The translations under genes and the position numbers were made by a program. From IMG/VR virus record IMGVR_UViG_3300007542_004263, positions 1-28,905 of that record: a stretch of 28,905 nucleotides of DNA. The stretch is one strand, 5' to 3'. Of the stretch, positions 13,226-28,807 are shown one piece after another (positions within the stretch are counted from its first letter, which is position 1; each line of letters opens with the position of its first letter). The notes under the pieces were generated by a model that ran no database searches, was not told where the DNA came from, and saw only the letters and a list, made by a program, of their open reading frames with translations. Source of the stretch: a virus.

Positions 13226-14065
13226 CTATCGCTCCGTCGACTCAAGCACCGTCAGGCACAGGCTGTAAAACTGGCGCCAAACCGTCTCGTCCGCCCACGG
13301 GGTAGCGTAGACGCCCGCGTACTCGGGGAGTACGACGGTGAAGTAGACCCTCGACTTGCTCGGGATGACAACCTCGTGAAACTCGAAGTCAATCATGATC
13401 CCCTGTGGGTAGTCGTTCGCCGATGGCAGCATCGAGCCGACGATGGCGGTCGCCGGGATTGGTGAGACGTTCTGCGCGGACGCGAGGAAGTCGCGCCGGC
13501 AGAGTTCAAGGGCGTCCTGCGATGCGTTCTCGGTGAGGAACGGGTTGGCGACGTGGACGAGTACCTGAATGTCCTTGCACGGGTCGCCCTTCTCGTTGCC
13601 CGGTGGCGGGACGTCCTCGCCGCCATTGGGGAACGTGAAGGTGTTGGGGAACTCGTCGTCGGTCTGGAGGAACGCTGTTGCGCGCTGGATGATGACGGGG
13701 CGCTCAAACCAGAGCGACGTCGTCCATGCGTACTGGTAGCCGGCGAGGGTGCTGCTGTCGAGGTTCAGTCCTTCAACGTCGATGCCCTTGTGGCGCCACC
13801 GCTGCGCCGGGGTCGGCAGCGTCTCGGTGATGGACTGGAACTTCGACGCATCGGTGATAACCCACGGCGGATAGTTCTGGAACCCGAGGTTCGCTTCGCA
13901 TCCCCTGTAGTGCGTGACGTACTTCGTCTCGAACCAGCGAGCCTCGACGTCGTCGTGACGCAGCGCGTTGAACCGCTCGCGCAGATCGGCAAGCGCGTTG
14001 GCGAGCCGATTGCCGTCGATGGTGGCGGCGTTCTGGAACTGCTCCCTGGTGAACCGCCGCAGCAT
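13226..14065 (-). CDS. Unknown virion protein, 279 aa
   Basis: Not recognised. The N-terminal 45 residues are helical (RRFTREQFQNAATIDGNRLA), resembling attachment helices of tail appendages. The rest is beta-rich with aromatic residues and two Pro/Gly-rich loops. Its ATG overlaps the stop of the beta-helix-like gene as TGATG, and its own stop is followed immediately by the next ATG. It probably forms a complex with one or both neighbours in the tail; no enzymatic residues are visible. Confidence 0.6.
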   Translation of the reverse strand: MLRRFTREQFQNAATIDGNRLANALADLRERFNALRHDDVEARWFETKYVTHYRGCEANLGFQNYPPWVITDASKFQSITETLPTPAQRWRHKGIDVEGLNLDSSTLAGYQYAWTTSLWFERPVIIQRATAFLQTDDEFPNTFTFPNGGEDVPPPGNEKGDPCKDIQVLVHVANPFLTENASQDALELCRRDFLASAQNVSPIPATAIVGSMLPSANDYPQGIMIDFEFHEVVIPSKSRVYFTVVLPEYAGVYATPWADETVWRQFYSLCLTVLESTER

Positions 14066-18007: not shown

Positions 18008-20008
18008 CTACGGCGCGCCCTGCACCCGGTTGGACATCGACCCGCTCTTGTCCTGCATGTTGGACTTGTCGCTCTGAACAGGCTTGGCGCCACTTGCGCC
18101 GTCCTGCCTGCGCTGGTCAGGCGCCGCAGGCGCACCAGCGACCGGGCCGGCTCGGTTGCCGGGCTGTGAGCCGGTCGGGGCGGGGCCTTGAAGACCGGCC
18201 TGCATCTGCGCGATCTGCATGTGAGCCGTCCGGTAGACCTCGAAGACGTTGTTGCGGATTTGCAGCGCGTCGATGGCGTTCTGGTCCCCGAGCGTCGCGC
18301 GCTGGTAGAGTTCGGCGGTGCCTTCCTCGTACAGCGGCGAGGTAATGTATTCGCGGAACACGGCCACGATGGCCTCGATGGTCGTTGGGTCTTCGACCCA
18401 CTCGACCTCGTAGCCGCTGATGACCTGGCCGAGCAGCCGCTTGGCCGTCGACAGCGCCTTCATGCGGTCAAGCTCCGCTCGTCGGTCGATCTTCATGCTC
18501 AGGTTTCGCAGGAGAACGTCAGGCGGAAGGGCTCCGAGTTGTGCGAGTTGCATGAGCATGTTGTCGCGACCCTCTTGGTCTGCGACAAACAGTGTTCCCG
18601 CCTCGATGTAGACGTCGGGCTTGTCGATGAGGTCGGCCTTACGGACGATGCGGATCACGTCTCCACCGAAGGTTGGGTCGAACAGCGAAACGCTCCGTTT
18701 GTCGACGCCGTACTCCTTCCACAGCGCGACGGCGGTCTTCGCTGCCGCGCAGAGCGCCTTCTCGACCTCCTCGCGGCACATGGTGAGTTGCTGAATGTCC
18801 TGGTTGATGAGGGTCTGCATCGACACGGCTGCCGAGATTCCCGGCGACCGCTTGCCCATGGTCATGCCGTGCATGCCGGCGACGTCTTCCATCTCGCCCA
18901 TGAGCCGGGCTTGGATATCGAACAGGTGCGCCGGCATCGGCGGGGCCGGAACGCGCTCGGGCTTGCCGCCGAGGGCGTTGTAGACGATGGGCTGCCCTGC
19001 CCGGTTCGACAGGTCGCCGGTGTTGACGTTGGCCTGCATCGGGATGAGCCACATCGGGTTGCTCATCAAGCGAGCGCCGTCGAGCAGGATCGAGCGGAAG
19101 ATGTTGTATTCGACCTGCTGGTAGAGCAGCGGCCAAAGCTGCGAGACGCCATACAGCCTCGCCGGCATGACGGTGAAGCGCATCAAGGCGATCGGCGTCG
19201 CCCCCTCTGGATACTCGCTCTGCTCAATCCACCCGCTGTCCTTCTCGACACCAGGGCAGAAGACGCCACAGCGCCCGTCTCGGAAATAGACGTACCACAG
19301 CTCGATACGCCTGCCATCGAAGGAGTATTCGACGGTGTCGCTTCCGTTCGTGTTCGTTCCAGACGCCTCCGTCTCGAACGCCTTGGCAAACTTGGGCCAT
19401 AGCGATGCAGCCTCCGACCGTGTCACCACGCGCCTGCATGCGGACCACTCTGCGTCCTCGGGGCGGATGGCCTCGGCTTCAAAGAGGATGTCGTAGGCGT
19501 TGACCATCTCGGTGACGGCGCAGCCGTCCTTGACGTAGGTGTGCAGCGCGGCGTTGCCGCACGCCGACAGCCAGCGCGCGCACTCGTTGAGCGTCTCGCT
19601 GATCTTGTTGCGGGAATGCCACTCCTGCACGCAGTACGACACGGCGAGTTGTCGAAGCTCGTCGTCGTAGGCCGGACTGCGCGACACCACGTTGAGGTTC
19701 GGCATCTGCGTCTTGAGCGCGGCGCAGGTCGACTTGTAGATGGGGAGCAGCCGGTTGACGATCTGCCGGAACGACTCGCTGCCGAGCCGGGCCTTCATGT
19801 CGTCGAGCCACCGCTCTCGGGTGTTGCCCTGCTGCCCGTCGAGGAATGCGAGGGACGTGTCCCACTTGCGGACCTCGTTCGCTCGCCAACGTCGGGCGCG
19901 AACGATCTCACCGGCGAACTCCGACGAGAGCGCGCCCTTCTCGGCGAGCCCGTACTCGGTCGGGAGGTCGTTGTCGACGTCGTTCGGTGAGAGGGTCTTG
20001 ACCTTCAT
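18008..20008 (-). CDS. Portal protein
   Basis: 666 residues. The N-terminal region (RWLDDMKARLGSESFRQIVN, then LPIYKSTCAALKTQMPNLNVVSR) and the central part (GNAALHTYVKDG, AYDILFEAEA, then a helical VAGMHGMTMGKRSP and MQTLINQDIQQLTMCREEVE) match podoviral portal proteins, which form the dodecameric DNA entry channel and dock terminase. The C-terminal about 60 residues are Gln/Pro/Gly-rich and disordered. Length is in the usual 500-750 range. It overlaps the glycine-zipper gene as ATGA. It lies downstream of capsid and decoration genes rather than between terminase and scaffold, an unusual order. Confidence 0.8.
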   Translation of the reverse strand: MKVKTLSPNDVDNDLPTEYGLAEKGALSSEFAGEIVRARRWRANEVRKWDTSLAFLDGQQGNTRERWLDDMKARLGSESFRQIVNRLLPIYKSTCAALKTQMPNLNVVSRSPAYDDELRQLAVSYCVQEWHSRNKISETLNECARWLSACGNAALHTYVKDGCAVTEMVNAYDILFEAEAIRPEDAEWSACRRVVTRSEAASLWPKFAKAFETEASGTNTNGSDTVEYSFDGRRIELWYVYFRDGRCGVFCPGVEKDSGWIEQSEYPEGATPIALMRFTVMPARLYGVSQLWPLLYQQVEYNIFRSILLDGARLMSNPMWLIPMQANVNTGDLSNRAGQPIVYNALGGKPERVPAPPMPAHLFDIQARLMGEMEDVAGMHGMTMGKRSPGISAAVSMQTLINQDIQQLTMCREEVEKALCAAAKTAVALWKEYGVDKRSVSLFDPTFGGDVIRIVRKADLIDKPDVYIEAGTLFVADQEGRDNMLMQLAQLGALPPDVLLRNLSMKIDRRAELDRMKALSTAKRLLGQVISGYEVEWVEDPTTIEAIVAVFREYITSPLYEEGTAELYQRATLGDQNAIDALQIRNNVFEVYRTAHMQIAQMQAGLQGPAPTGSQPGNRAGPVAGAPAAPDQRRQDGASGAKPVQSDKSNMQDKSGSMSNRVQGAP

Positions 20009-21194: not shown

Positions 21195-21271
21195 TGGTAG
21201 CGCGGGGTGGATTTGAACCACCGGCCTCTTGGGTATGAACCAAGCGAGCTGCCTGACTGCTCCACCGCGCT
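21195..21271 (-). tRNA. tRNA-Met (CAT anticodon), CCA encoded
   Basis: On the minus strand a full cloverleaf folds: acceptor AGCGCGG/CCGCGCT (7 perfect pairs), D arm GAGC/GCTC, anticodon arm CTTGG/CCAAG with loop TTCATAC (anticodon CAT), variable AGGCC, and T arm GGTGG/CCACC with TTCAAAT. Discriminator A and a genomic CCA follow. A1 pairs with U72 and the anticodon stem lacks three consecutive G:C pairs, so it looks like an elongator Met, or an Ile2 type if C34 is modified, rather than an initiator. It lies within the late operon, 5 nt before the ribosome site of the 209-aa gene. Confidence 0.95.
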
Positions 21272-24306: not shown

Positions 24307-24324
24307 GGTAGACGTTTGTCTACC
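24307..24324 (-). promoter_or_regulatory. Hairpin A in terL-scaffold gap
   Basis: GGTAGAC pairs with GTCTACC (7 bp) around a loop that reads AAAC on the transcript. It shares the core GACAAACGTC with the neighbouring hairpin while the flanking pairs differ but stay complementary, suggesting that the structure is selected. It lies upstream of the scaffold and capsid genes, so it may bind a protein or be a processing site. Confidence 0.5.
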
Positions 24325-24326
24325 TG

Positions 24327-24356
24327 CTTGACGTTTGTCAAGTGGATATTTGACAA
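24327..24356 (-). promoter_or_regulatory. Hairpin B with alternative pairing in terL-scaffold gap
   Basis: CTTGAC and GTCAAG (24327-24342) pair around an AAAC loop on the transcript, starting near the terL stop. The upstream segment TTGTCAA (transcript sense, 24350-24356) can instead pair with TTGACAA (24335-24341), giving a mutually exclusive 7-bp hairpin with an 8-nt loop. Such exclusive pairings are typical of regulatory RNA switches, but no ligand or protein is known here. Confidence 0.45.
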
Positions 24357-24357
24357 C

Positions 24358-26109
24358 CTACCCCAAGATTCCGAAGTCATCCTTCGGGTTCCACGCCCAC
24401 CTGTCAGCCCGCTCGGTCCTGACGACCCCGAGAGAGCGGTAGGCAGCAGCGTTCTGGCGTTCTTCCTCGGTGTCGTCGTCAAACTCCTGCCCAGGGTCGA
24501 ACGTCTTGTGGTTCCGAATCTCCCACAAGGCGATCTCATCGGGCGTCCTCGGCCTCGACGTGAACTGGCCTCGATGCTGGGACAGGAATTCGGGTTCCAG
24601 ACCGAGCGCCATCAGCGCGAAGGAGAACAACAGGTCGTCGTGGTCCCCGCTGCCGGCTTCTTCCTTGAACCCCTTGTCGGGGTTGTAGCGAAAACCGTTG
24701 ATTTCCCGCTGCAATCGAGGGCACCAAGGGAAGACGTTGGGCTTTGGACCCCCAAAGTGCATCTTCATCTTGCCGATCAGCGTCGGGCGCGTGTTGACGT
24801 TGGTCGAGAAACCGAGCTTGTCGCCGACGCGGACCCCGTAGCGGTCGGTCAGCACCTCTCGCCAGATGTAGGGGTACTCAAGTTCGGCGCACCGCATCAG
24901 GAACGCGAGTCCGTAGGTGTTGCGCTCGCCCAAGATCATCGCCCCGTACCGCTTGGCGATGACGAGAGCCTGCTCGGCAGCCTCGTTGGTGTCGCAGCGG
25001 AAGTACCCGGTCCCGCAAAGCTCCGGCTTTCGAGCGTCACCGCACCCCAAGACCATCGCGGTGTAGTCGCCGGCCTCTGCGCCAGAGGCACAGTCGACCC
25101 CAAGGACGTACTTCTCGCCTGGCTTTGGCCGCTCATGCTCCTTGTTGGGGTTGGTGAGCCAGCCAGTCGACGGTCTTCCGACCGGAAACGACACCTGGAA
25201 GACGCGACCCTCTGACACAGAGAAGGCAAGACCCGGTGTCGCCGGAAACTCGCGGTGAAAACCAATCCAGTCCCACTTCTTCTCACCGAGCTTGAGGAAC
25301 GCCCACATCGCCTGACCGGGCGCCAGCTCGTACTCGCCGATGTACCCCTCGAACTGGCGCCGGTTGTCGGTGTTTTTAAGCCCGGCAACAGCCTCCTCGA
25401 CGTCCCTTGTGGTCGCTCCTTCGATGCTGTAGAGCGGATGGAGCATCCACGAGAAGAATATCTTGGTCCACGGGGTGTCCTCGTCGTACCAGAGCTGGTG
25501 CGTAAGCCCGAGCCCCATCGCCGTCGTCTCGATGACCGCCTTGCCGCCGCTGAACATGGCGTCGAGAGCCGAGTTCATCACCCGTTCGGGCTTGTCATAC
25601 GACGCGAACTCCGAGAAATGACACAGGTCGATGTCGCCACCACGCCACGGTTCACTGTTTGGCGTGCCGATACGCACCGAACCACCCCCGTCGAACCGGA
25701 TACCGTCGTCTAGGGTGTTCTGGACGACCCGGTACTCCATGATGTCGAACGCAGGAGGCATCGCGTTGAGCGGACGACGGACCTTGGTGTGGTAGACCTC
25801 GGCGAGAGCGCCGGGTTCGTGGACCACCAAGGCCACCTTCTTCCCATGGAACTTCGCCATCCACACCCCGAGGGCGCAGATGTCGGTCGAGATCCCGAGC
25901 TTTCTGGACTTGACGATGAGGGTCCGACCCGTCTCGAACAGCGACTTGTTGACCGTCCTCTGCTCGGGACTGAGCTTGAGGTTGCACCGCCCTCCGTCCC
26001 GGTTGTCGATCTGCCACCAGTTCTCGGTGAAGTATTCAAACCCCTGCCGACACCGGTCAATCTCGGCGAGGACAAGCTCGGCAGAGCGCCTGTCAGACAG
26101 CGTTGACAT
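24358..26109 (-). CDS. terL: Terminase large subunit
   Basis: 583 residues. ATPase half: the Walker A variant KSRKLGISTD (67-76), typical of terminases (K-x-R-x-L/Q-G-x-S), a Walker B-like strand IDLCHFSEFA with Glu at 167, and the coupling motif AVIETTAMG (191-199). Nuclease half: VLGVDCASGAEAGDY with Asp 339, ILGERNTYG with Glu 395, and GSGDHDDLLFSFALMALG with Asp 489/491/492, the RNase H-like metal ligands. It packages DNA into proheads through the portal. ATG 26109 overlaps the upstream gene by 17 nt; longer starts would increase that overlap. It is the most confident functional call in the window. Confidence 0.92.
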   Translation of the reverse strand: MSTLSDRRSAELVLAEIDRCRQGFEYFTENWWQIDNRDGGRCNLKLSPEQRTVNKSLFETGRTLIVKSRKLGISTDICALGVWMAKFHGKKVALVVHEPGALAEVYHTKVRRPLNAMPPAFDIMEYRVVQNTLDDGIRFDGGGSVRIGTPNSEPWRGGDIDLCHFSEFASYDKPERVMNSALDAMFSGGKAVIETTAMGLGLTHQLWYDEDTPWTKIFFSWMLHPLYSIEGATTRDVEEAVAGLKNTDNRRQFEGYIGEYELAPGQAMWAFLKLGEKKWDWIGFHREFPATPGLAFSVSEGRVFQVSFPVGRPSTGWLTNPNKEHERPKPGEKYVLGVDCASGAEAGDYTAMVLGCGDARKPELCGTGYFRCDTNEAAEQALVIAKRYGAMILGERNTYGLAFLMRCAELEYPYIWREVLTDRYGVRVGDKLGFSTNVNTRPTLIGKMKMHFGGPKPNVFPWCPRLQREINGFRYNPDKGFKEEAGSGDHDDLLFSFALMALGLEPEFLSQHRGQFTSRPRTPDEIALWEIRNHKTFDPGQEFDDDTEEERQNAAAYRSLGVVRTERADRWAWNPKDDFGILG

Positions 26110-26845
26110 CAGACCCCATCGCCTTGACCAGCGCGTCTCGGCGAGCCTCAGCACGCCGCTTGTGCAGACCAGAACCAGCCGCCTCGATGAGCAACCGCTC
26201 CTTCTTCGGAAGCCTCATGTGGCGAGCGTGACCCTCGAGGTAGATGATCTGGTCGGACTTGACCACCGCATTTGTCAATGATTCCACGAACCGACCCGCG
26301 ATTTCGGCGGCCTGCTCCGATTGCTCGTCGATCTCCCGAGCGTCCCACGCCTGCTGCAAGACCTCCTCGACGCCACGCCACAACCTGGTGAACTTCCGAA
26401 GACGGTTGTACCCCTTGAGCAGCTTCTTGGCGTTGGCAGCCTCCGAGGCGGAACAGAACCCGTCCACCTTCTTCCACAGCATCCCGGCGAGGGTTCCCAT
26501 GGGGCGGATGACACGGACCTCCTTGTCCGCGTCCGCCTCGGCCACCATGCGCGCACGGAGGGCCACAGCACGGACCTGCTCCATGGTGTCGACCGCGTCC
26601 TTGTGCAGAACCATCATCGCAGCACACAGACTCTCTGCGACGACCTCGTCGGGAAGCTCCCAGGGCTCGTCCTGCAATCCACCGAACTCACCGTCGTCGA
26701 CCTGTTCACCAGACAGGATCTTCATCAAGAGCGCGGAGCGCTGCTTCTCTCGCGTCGTCGGGGTCGTTGGGTCCGTCGTCTCCACCATCGTCTCGGACTC
26801 GCTTGACCCTTCCGACTGCTGCTCGTTGTAGTTCACCCCTTCCAT
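26093..26845 (-). CDS. Unknown protein upstream of terL, 250 aa
   Basis: Mostly helical. The first 35 residues are polar and Ser/Thr/Glu-rich (disordered), followed by helical regions including VAESLCAAMMVLHKDAVDTM and a basic helical segment KKLLKGYNRLRKFTRLWRG, and a charged C-terminus. It could be a terminase small subunit or packaging partner because it directly precedes and overlaps terL, but no family is recognised. The start at 26845 is supported by an upstream GTGAGGGAAG and by strong G/C third positions from the first codon. Its first 140 nt overlap the end of the preceding gene in another frame. Confidence 0.65.
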   Translation of the reverse strand: MEGVNYNEQQSEGSSESETMVETTDPTTPTTREKQRSALLMKILSGEQVDDGEFGGLQDEPWELPDEVVAESLCAAMMVLHKDAVDTMEQVRAVALRARMVAEADADKEVRVIRPMGTLAGMLWKKVDGFCSASEAANAKKLLKGYNRLRKFTRLWRGVEEVLQQAWDAREIDEQSEQAAEIAGRFVESLTNAVVKSDQIIYLEGHARHMRLPKKERLLIEAAGSGLHKRRAEARRDALVKAMGSDVNAV

Positions 26846-27446
26846 CTTCCCTCACCCCCTTGGACACGATGGCCGCGTCAATCACCCTCAACTCGTTGTC
26901 CTCGGTCAACTGCCGGGACTTCTGCGCGAGCTTCTTCTCCCGAATGGCAGCCGCCGCAATCTCCAGAACCGTCTCGGTCGTCGTCTTCTCGTTGAGCGAC
27001 CCGTCCACCCGAGCAATGTCCAGAGCCACCGTCGCCGCCATCTTGATCGACTTGGCGTCCTGCGTCTTCGCTCCGATGGACATCAACCCGTTGAAGCACA
27101 TCTCCAACCGGGCCACGGCCAGGGCCTTTCTCTCGTCTCGACTCTGACTGTTCAGAACGTCAGCACGACGCCTCCGAGCCCTCGCCATCTCGCGACGAGC
27201 CTTCTCAATCTGCTGCGAAAACGTCCCCTCAAACCCAGCCCCACGCCGCTTGAGCAACGTCTGCAACTCAACGGGACTCATCCCCAGGGCATCGGCCCAA
27301 TCGAGGAACTGGTCCCCGTCCTTCTCGATCTCTTTGATCTCGTCCTCGGTCATCTCCGACCCAAGACCAAGACCAATCCGGGCGTCGAACACGTCCGAAC
27401 TACGAGCGAGGACCGCGTTGGTCAGACTGTCACCACGCTTGCTCAC
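26706..27446 (-). CDS. First late-operon gene, 246 aa; small terminase candidate
   Basis: The product has an acidic helical N-part with a possible helix-turn-helix (FLDWADALGMSPVELQTLLK, about residues 46-65). A basic coiled coil follows (EKARREMARARRRRADVL, 78-95), then helical segments with SIKMAATVALDIARVDG and an acidic tail. A DNA-binding N-terminus, a helical oligomerisation part and a place two genes before terL fit a small terminase, though no family is certain. GTG 27446 is preferred: TGGAGGTGT lies a few bases upstream; a TTG further up lacks this. The last 46 codons overlap the next gene and have unusual third positions. Confidence 0.6.
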   Translation of the reverse strand: MSKRGDSLTNAVLARSSDVFDARIGLGLGSEMTEDEIKEIEKDGDQFLDWADALGMSPVELQTLLKRRGAGFEGTFSQQIEKARREMARARRRRADVLNSQSRDERKALAVARLEMCFNGLMSIGAKTQDAKSIKMAATVALDIARVDGSLNEKTTTETVLEIAAAAIREKKLAQKSRQLTEDNELRVIDAAIVSKGVREDGRGELQRAAVGRVKRVRDDGGDDGPNDPDDAREAALRALDEDPVW

Positions 27447-27555
27447 AGGGACACCTCCACCATCAAGGTTCGGAGGGACCAAGGCTCCTGTCAAGAAGCA
27501 CCGAGAACAAGCCTAGAATCAAAGGGTTGCAAAAAACCTCAATGATTCCGACCCC

Positions 27556-27608
27556 ATACGAGGCATGGATGCTTCGCATCGTCCACGCTTGCGTGGCATG
27601 CCTCGTAT
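27556..27608. repeat. Inverted repeat forming a perfect three-way junction
   Basis: A 12-bp outer stem (ATACGAGGCATG, 27556-27567, with CATGCCTCGTAT, 27597-27608) encloses two further hairpins back to back: GATGC-TTC-GCATC at 27568-27580 and CCACGC-TT-GCGTGG at 27583-27596. Only two bases (27581-27582) are unpaired between helices. On the minus strand the first inner hairpin contains GCGAAGC, a DNA mini-hairpin known for exceptional stability. It lies about 110 nt upstream of the first late gene. It may be a protein site, origin, packaging signal or structured leader RNA. Confidence 0.75.
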
Positions 27609-27680
27609 CATAACCAGAACCCAAGGTCAACCCCGTTTCTTGCGCGCGTTTTCGGTCTTCGTGTTTCTGGTTCCGGTCAA

Positions 27681-27710
27681 CACCCCAAGCCACCCGAAGG
27701 CTCTGGGGTG
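27681..27710. repeat. Hairpin in control region
   Basis: CACCCCA (27681-27687) pairs with TGGGGTG (27704-27710), and inside it GCC pairs with GGC across a small internal loop. On the plus strand a run of seven T lies at 27734-27740, about 24 nt beyond the stem, too far for a standard intrinsic terminator. Confidence 0.4.
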
Positions 27711-28204
27711 GGGCGTAAGTCGTGGATTTGAGATTTTTTTGTGGCGGGGGTGGGGTCATACTAATACACACCGCCGGAGGCGCGCCTGCGGCAACCCCCC
27801 AGGGTCCAATGTCGTTGTTCGCCGACTTTTTTTCCGGCTCGTGGTCCGGCCGCTCCGTCACGCGCGCCGCCCTGGTCCGCTCCGGGCCGAGCCGCGCCAT
27901 TGCCCCCACGCTTCGCCCCTCGCCCGGCGCCGATGCCTGCGGTGGGGGTCGCGTTTCGCAGGCGCCTTAGCCTCGACGCCTTTGTGGTCGTCGAGGCCGG
28001 CGCCGCTGTCGGGGTCGTCGGGGGCCACGGGTCACCGGCGCCGCTGCCGCCGCTGTCGCCGCTGCCGCCCTGGCGTCGTCGGGGCCACCGGGGCCGGCAA
28101 GGCCTTGGCGCCGTTGTCGCCGTCGTCGGGGCTGCCATCGTCGGCGGCGCCGCTTGTGCCTGCCTGCGCCGTCTGCGCTGGCGCCGGGGCCGGTGCGCCA
28201 TCCT

Positions 28205-28224: not shown

Positions 28225-28452
28225 GGGTCACCAGTCGGGGCGGCCCGGCTTGCGCGGGCGCTGGTGGCGGGGCGATTTGGGGGCGGCTGACCCCTCCCCG
28301 CTTCCCACCCTACCCGCCATTGACATCTCCGGCCTCACCTCTCGCCCTACGGCCTCGCCAGCCTCACGCGCGCGCGAGAGCTTCCATGCCCGACAAAAAA
28401 GCCTGCGCTGTCGCCACCCTATAACTTTCTTCGTCTGACTTGCACAAATCTA

Positions 28453-28480
28453 TTGACACTCCATGTGGGAGGTGTACCTT
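28453..28480 (+). promoter_or_regulatory. Candidate promoter for rightward genes
   Basis: A perfect -35 box TTGACA at 28453-28458 is followed, after 16 bp, by TACCTT (28475-28480), a weak -10 with three matches to the consensus. It lies about 40 bp upstream of the start of the first rightward gene. The weak -10 leaves open that an activator or a phage-specific factor is needed. Confidence 0.4.
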
Positions 28481-28521: not shown

Positions 28522-28767
28522 ATGCAACGGGTAAGCCACGCGTGGCGTTTCGAGACAAAAGACCAGCGGATCGCGCGGGGTCGGCGTAATGCTGCGCGGG
28601 TGCTTGATTTCGCCGTCAACAAGTTCGGCTGGGTCAAGACGTGCCGACGCGGGGATCGCGTCTACCTCCGCAGCCCGAACGGTGCTCGGGGATACGTCGA
28701 CCTGAACTGCGGCGAGATCAGCGCGCGTCTCTGGTTCGTCATGCATGAGGCGCTTCGCGACGCCTAA
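28522..28767 (+). CDS. Small basic hypothetical protein, 81 aa (probably early)
   Basis: Not recognised. The N-terminal half is strongly basic and helical (RIARGRRNAARVLDFAVNKF), followed by a small beta-rich segment (DRVYLRSPNGARGYVDLNCG) and a C-terminal helix. The size and charge would suit a small nucleic-acid- or host-protein-binding early protein, but no function can be assigned. Start ATG 28522 is preceded by a consensus ribosome site AGGAGGTGA at 28508-28516, the strongest in the window. It is followed by a hairpin and then a further rightward gene. Confidence 0.75.
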   Translation: MQRVSHAWRFETKDQRIARGRRNAARVLDFAVNKFGWVKTCRRGDRVYLRSPNGARGYVDLNCGEISARLWFVMHEALRDA

Positions 28768-28770
28768 CAT

Positions 28771-28807
28771 GGAAGGGCGGCGCCGCAGGTGTCGGCGTCG
28801 CCCTTCC
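28771..28807 (+). terminator. Hairpin after the first rightward gene
   Basis: A 15-bp stem (28771-28785 with 28793-28807, one G-U pair) encloses a 7-nt loop, beginning 4 nt after the stop codon. Only a short T/C-rich sequence follows, so it may act as a partial terminator or as an RNA stabiliser between this gene and the next. Confidence 0.5.

Follow-up and report, generated by a model that had tools for sequence, protein, structure and literature searches.

A single-copy, perfectly paired three-way junction in the control region of an orphan podovirus

Introduction

What purpose could be served by a mismatch-free three-way junction in the non-coding DNA of a phage, when it can be folded from either strand? 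The question is raised by 53 bases at positions 27556-27608 of a linear viral record of 28.9 kb, the whole of which was analysed and is referred to below as the window. By its sequence, the record is a fragment of a tailed phage, a podovirus that appears to be an orphan at present. The initial annotation described a 12-bp outer stem enclosing two hairpins, with two unpaired bases in the junction, over 53 nt, and sequence and fold agree on this description.

Fold and rarity of the junction

The junction consists of 12, 5 and 5 pairs, and all 22 are Watson-Crick, with no G-U pair, bulge or mismatch (Table 1). For this reason both strands fold equally well, with nearly equal DNA fold energies (-20.2 and -19.5 kcal/mol). 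The minimum-energy fold of the DNA is exactly the three-way junction (-20.4 kcal/mol, z -5.2), and none of 200 shuffled sequences folded as well. The minimum-energy fold of the plus-strand RNA is the same junction (-29.6 kcal/mol, z -4.1, with one of 200 shuffles as good), and the fold of the minus-strand RNA contains it (-34.6 kcal/mol, z -4.3).

Table 1. Positions in the window of the parts of the junction and of neighbouring genes and signals
Feature	Position	Strand	Sequence or signal	Basis or remark
Outer 12-bp stem, left arm	27556..27567	+	ATACGAGGCATG	sequence and fold
Hairpin A	27568..27580		+ GATGC-TTC-GCATC; - GATGC-GAA-GCATC	includes the GCGAAGC mini-hairpin (-)
Unpaired junction bases	27581..27582		GT on +, AC on -	
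Hairpin B	27583..27596	+	CCACG-CTTG-CGTGG	as DNA, a sixth pair (C-G) around a TT loop is possible
Outer 12-bp stem, right arm	27597..27608	+	CATGCCTCGTAT	sequence and fold
Portal protein (relative of P22-like portals)	18008-20008			database match
Terminase large subunit	24358-26154	-		database match
Minus operon, first gene (246-aa product)	26706..27446	-	GTG start after GGAGG	
Small plus gene	28522-28767	+	start after AGGAGG	
Candidate promoter of the minus operon	27466..27494	-	TTGACA-17-GAACCT	consensus match only; weak second hexamer
Candidate divergent promoter, small plus gene	28453..28480	+	TTGACA-16-TACCTT	consensus match only; weak second hexamer
60-bp stretch with the joint highest A+T content in the window	27488..27547		42% G+C	adjoins the element

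A scan of the whole window found this one perfect three-way junction, and of 1,600 first-order Markov randomisations of the 28.9-kb sequence, one held a structure of at least 22 pairs. Other viral DNA, about 1.26 Mb in all, contained a single structure with an equal pair total (in L072); it is A+T-rich and has four unpaired junction bases. The junction is real and a chance origin is unlikely, the more so because a chance structure would also have to fall within about 1 kb of non-coding DNA. Dispersed repeats of the REP type do not account for it, as no further copy of the element was found in the 28.9-kb fragment, and the T run that would directly follow the G+C-rich hairpin of an intrinsic terminator is absent after the stem on both strands. 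Among the Rfam 15 covariance models, the only match in the window was to a tRNA, and nothing relevant was found at the element even at a relaxed E-value. The element is thus a real, tidy, single-copy curiosity that belongs to none of the families tested.

Genomic context

All large structural reading frames of the window lie on the minus strand, in a packaging and structural operon that extends for about 20 kb or more. It opens with a gene that, judging by its position, is probably the small terminase and whose 246-aa product had no database match; the element lies 110 bp upstream of the start of this gene. A tRNA-Met (CAT) gene is located at 21195-21271 (minus strand), within the structural gene cluster. 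The 28.9-kb fragment shows neither a replication gene nor an end of the genome.

The term "divergent control region", applied to this locus in the initial annotation, is a fair one, since about 1 kb with no credible gene separates the start of the minus operon (27446) from that of the small plus gene (28522), which is followed just past its end by a strong hairpin (28771-28807). The reading frames in between do not have the codon-position composition of this phage's genes. One of these, a minus-strand frame of 148 aa (27463-27909), runs across the element and is uninterrupted in a sister contig as well. It was rejected as a gene on three grounds: its codon-position G+C of 0.61/0.54/0.64, against for example 0.59/0.45/0.82 in genes of this phage, shows neither their strong third-position excess nor their low second position; the start signal of the first gene is found immediately beyond its end; and at its upstream end the two contigs differ by a 1-base insertion or deletion.

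Among 60-bp stretches of the window, A+T content is highest in 27488-27547 and 28420-28479. Both contain or touch a TTGACA (minus strand, 27494; plus strand, 28453), and these are the best promoter candidates in the region; neither was listed by a standard promoter scan at a stricter threshold. Relative to the minus-strand TTGACA, the element is placed 61 bp upstream. Other inverted repeats are found nearby, namely AACCAGAA (27612-27619) with TTCTGGTT (27665-27672) and GAATCA (27516-27521) with TGATTC (27543-27548).

The third most A+T-rich spot of the window is intergenic, between the large terminase gene and the next gene (24307-24380, minus strand). It holds adjacent palindromes with a common core, CTTGACAAACGTCAAG and GGTAGACAAACGTCTACC, at a spacing of 21 bp; upstream of them, GGGGTAGGTTGTC could be an alternative pairing partner for the second palindrome. 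The arrangement suggests a pair of operators or an RNA with alternative folds, and tandem palindromes of this size are not rare in shuffled sequences.

A cluster of operators?

The nesting of the repeats could merely resemble a folded structure if the element were a cluster of protein-binding dyads, the operators of a phage regulator. Consistent with this, a promoter candidate is preceded by three dyads, the centres of the outer 12-mers are 41 bp apart, and a second pair of palindromes, with GACAAACGTC cores 21 bp apart, occurs in the A+T-rich intergenic DNA at 24307-24342. However, the three dyads differ from each other in sequence, they abut with only two spare bases, and they do not recur at other promoter candidates beyond chance (up to 3 mismatches), which makes operators an improbable explanation.

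Relatives of the phage

Searches of viral contigs with four proteins (terminase, portal, coat and putative small terminase) identified two close relatives, L003 (14.3 kb, 99.73% identity) and L004 (8.7 kb, 99.90%). Only L003 spans the element, and not one base of it is changed, so that the pairs show neither compensating nor disruptive substitutions. Because L003 differs from the window by only 0.27% over the whole 14 kb, this identity says little about selection. The non-coding DNA at 27447-27863 differs from the sister contig at one of about 417 bases, and the next 103 bases contain 12 differences. From 27864-27966 onwards, the DNA is very G+C-rich, repeat-laden and non-coding, and the sister contig diverges abruptly, with these 12 differences and a 1-base insertion or deletion in about 100 bases and then no alignment. 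L003 and L004 belong to different assemblies of metagenomes, and each of them ends precisely at position 13694 of the window, within the gene at 13226-14065; this is perhaps a strain-variable branch point, or the two are assemblies of the same reads.

Beyond these contigs, a large-terminase profile reached 80 loci, the next best with about 27% identity, and no comparable junction was found beside the terminase in the loci examined at that identity and below. Further profile and motif searches added only terminase relatives of about 27% identity or unrelated matches. Records of isolated phages gave distant matches to the terminase and portal only, and none to the coat protein, an 880-aa protein or the small terminase. 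A search of other genomes with a structure-based model, which had been proposed as a check, found no match in 30 distant viral records, the covariance model being built from one sequence and hence a weak test, close to a sequence search, that detects near copies only. The pattern of the outer stem occurred in 60 stretches of viral contigs, and L003 alone gave the junction on folding. A search of the literature on GCGAAGC hairpins of phages and on such junctions found nothing relevant.

A copy of a bacterial repeat?

Perfect inverted repeats can also arise from small mobile or repeat elements or by template switching, in which case the element would be a remnant, copy or by-product with no function for the phage. 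In 84,980 bacterial and archaeal genomes, a search for the innermost ten bases of both outer arms, correctly spaced, found 8 places, mostly in unrelated families of hairpin repeats. Three of these places are in one Acidobacteria MAG and one in a second, where they belong to a dispersed plain-hairpin repeat (ACACGAGGCATGAAGG...), and two Bacteroidetes places are tandem palindromes of another kind; none of the 8 has a two-armed fold. The dispersed repeats of the first Acidobacteria MAG, with a related copy in the second, have the same ACGAGGCATG ends as the element, which argues for a mobile origin. However, ACGAGGCATG is the searched pattern itself, and the repeats compared (L152-L158, Acidobacteria and Bacteroidetes) are plain long or tandem hairpins in bacterial chromosomes, with other interiors and little in common with the element beyond the searched 10-mer; we take the ten shared bases to be an effect of the search pattern. 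The element is also single-copy in the window, and a wider search of 199 Acidobacteria genomes found no copy and only one weak match of 22 bases. A functionless remnant or by-product is therefore distinctly improbable. In the Acidobacteria MAGs, the dispersed family of hairpin repeats (ACACGAGGCATGAAGGRCTGAAGG...) is represented at L152-L154, L158 and L160-L165, with five copies found in one genome.

A promoter of the N4 type?

The GCGAAGC mini-hairpin, which the initial annotation had placed on the minus strand of one arm, is present in hairpin A. This heptamer occurs 15 times in the window, and only the copy in hairpin A has a stem of more than 3 pairs, the stems of the other 14 having 2-3 pairs. 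The motif had suggested a likeness to the promoters of the N4 virion RNA polymerase, which are DNA hairpins of 5-7 bp with a 3-base, purine-centred (GNA) loop, separated from the start site by a run of A (PMC4496689). The minus strand of hairpin A has such a form, a 5-bp stem closed on a GAA loop of the GNA type, and the element shares with the early promoter hairpins of N4 (Schitoviridae; PMC4496689) a small GNA-loop DNA hairpin, a G+C-rich heptamer and a place in a phage control region. In contrast, the hairpin lies inside a larger junction, it is followed directly by CATGCCTCG instead of a run of A, and, where N4 promoters occur as several copies of one consensus, it is single in the window. 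The pair of motifs of T7-type polymerases is absent from the 28.9-kb window, which is an incomplete genome, and the virion protein of 1,931 aa matches no polymerase family, in line with the earlier remark that no virion RNA polymerase is seen in this fragment. The likeness is thus limited to the GNA mini-hairpin, and an N4-type promoter hairpin is extremely improbable.

An element of the late leader RNA?

The element could also act as RNA in the 5′ leader of the long minus operon, about 110 nt before the first gene, in transcripts starting upstream of 27608; there the junction would protect the 5′ end, be cut by RNase III or modify RNA polymerase in cis. The strong fold of the minus-strand RNA, the position of the element ahead of a long operon (about 20 kb or more) and the further inverted repeats in the same stretch are consistent with such a role. 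The two-hairpin put RNAs of phage HK022 modify RNA polymerase in cis, and the element resembles these antiterminators in having, close to a phage promoter, two hairpins with hardly any bases between them, with the difference that it is enclosed by a 12-bp stem and lies apparently upstream, not downstream, of the promoter. This position weakens a role in the late leader: the best promoter candidate is located between the element and the gene, and if the promoter at 27494 is right, its RNA would not contain the element. No convincing minus-strand promoter was found upstream of the element, which moreover has neither an Rfam match nor G-U pairs. A leader element with one of these functions is therefore possible but rather doubtful.

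A proposed structural element of the DNA

The best explanation, which is advanced tentatively, is that the junction is a structural element of the DNA itself, located in the control region that precedes the packaging genes. RNA helix sets of this size often hold G-U pairs, and the exclusive use of Watson-Crick pairs, with both strands equal, mildly favours a role at the DNA level over one in an RNA leader. The location of the element upstream of a promoter candidate and beside an A+T-rich stretch points the same way. Separation of the strands, during replication or entry of the genome, or strong negative supercoiling could let each strand fold into a 12-bp stem bearing two very stable small hairpins; spontaneous extrusion of a cruciform would be slow, because the inner palindromes are short. 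The likeliest use of such a structure would be as a shape recognised by a DNA-binding protein of the phage or the host, which would start replication or packaging, or act on the neighbouring promoter. Formation of the junction inside the cell, its recognition by a protein and its part in one of these processes are inferred; of the DNA-level uses put forward in the initial annotation, which also named a resolvase site, an origin or a packaging site is possible.

T-shaped hairpins are known from the ends of the adeno-associated virus genome, and they resemble the element in that an outer stem surrounds two small hairpins and nearly all bases are paired. The element differs in being internal and 53 bases long, in the genome of a double-stranded DNA phage with no known Rep protein. 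That the phage encodes a T-shaped DNA structure which is read by its shape as an origin or packaging start, in a podovirus lineage with no sequenced close kin, is a slim prospect. Should the element work as a folded DNA signal, it would provide a compact example, easy to test, of DNA shape being used by a phage with a double-stranded DNA genome, as it is by N4 for its promoters.
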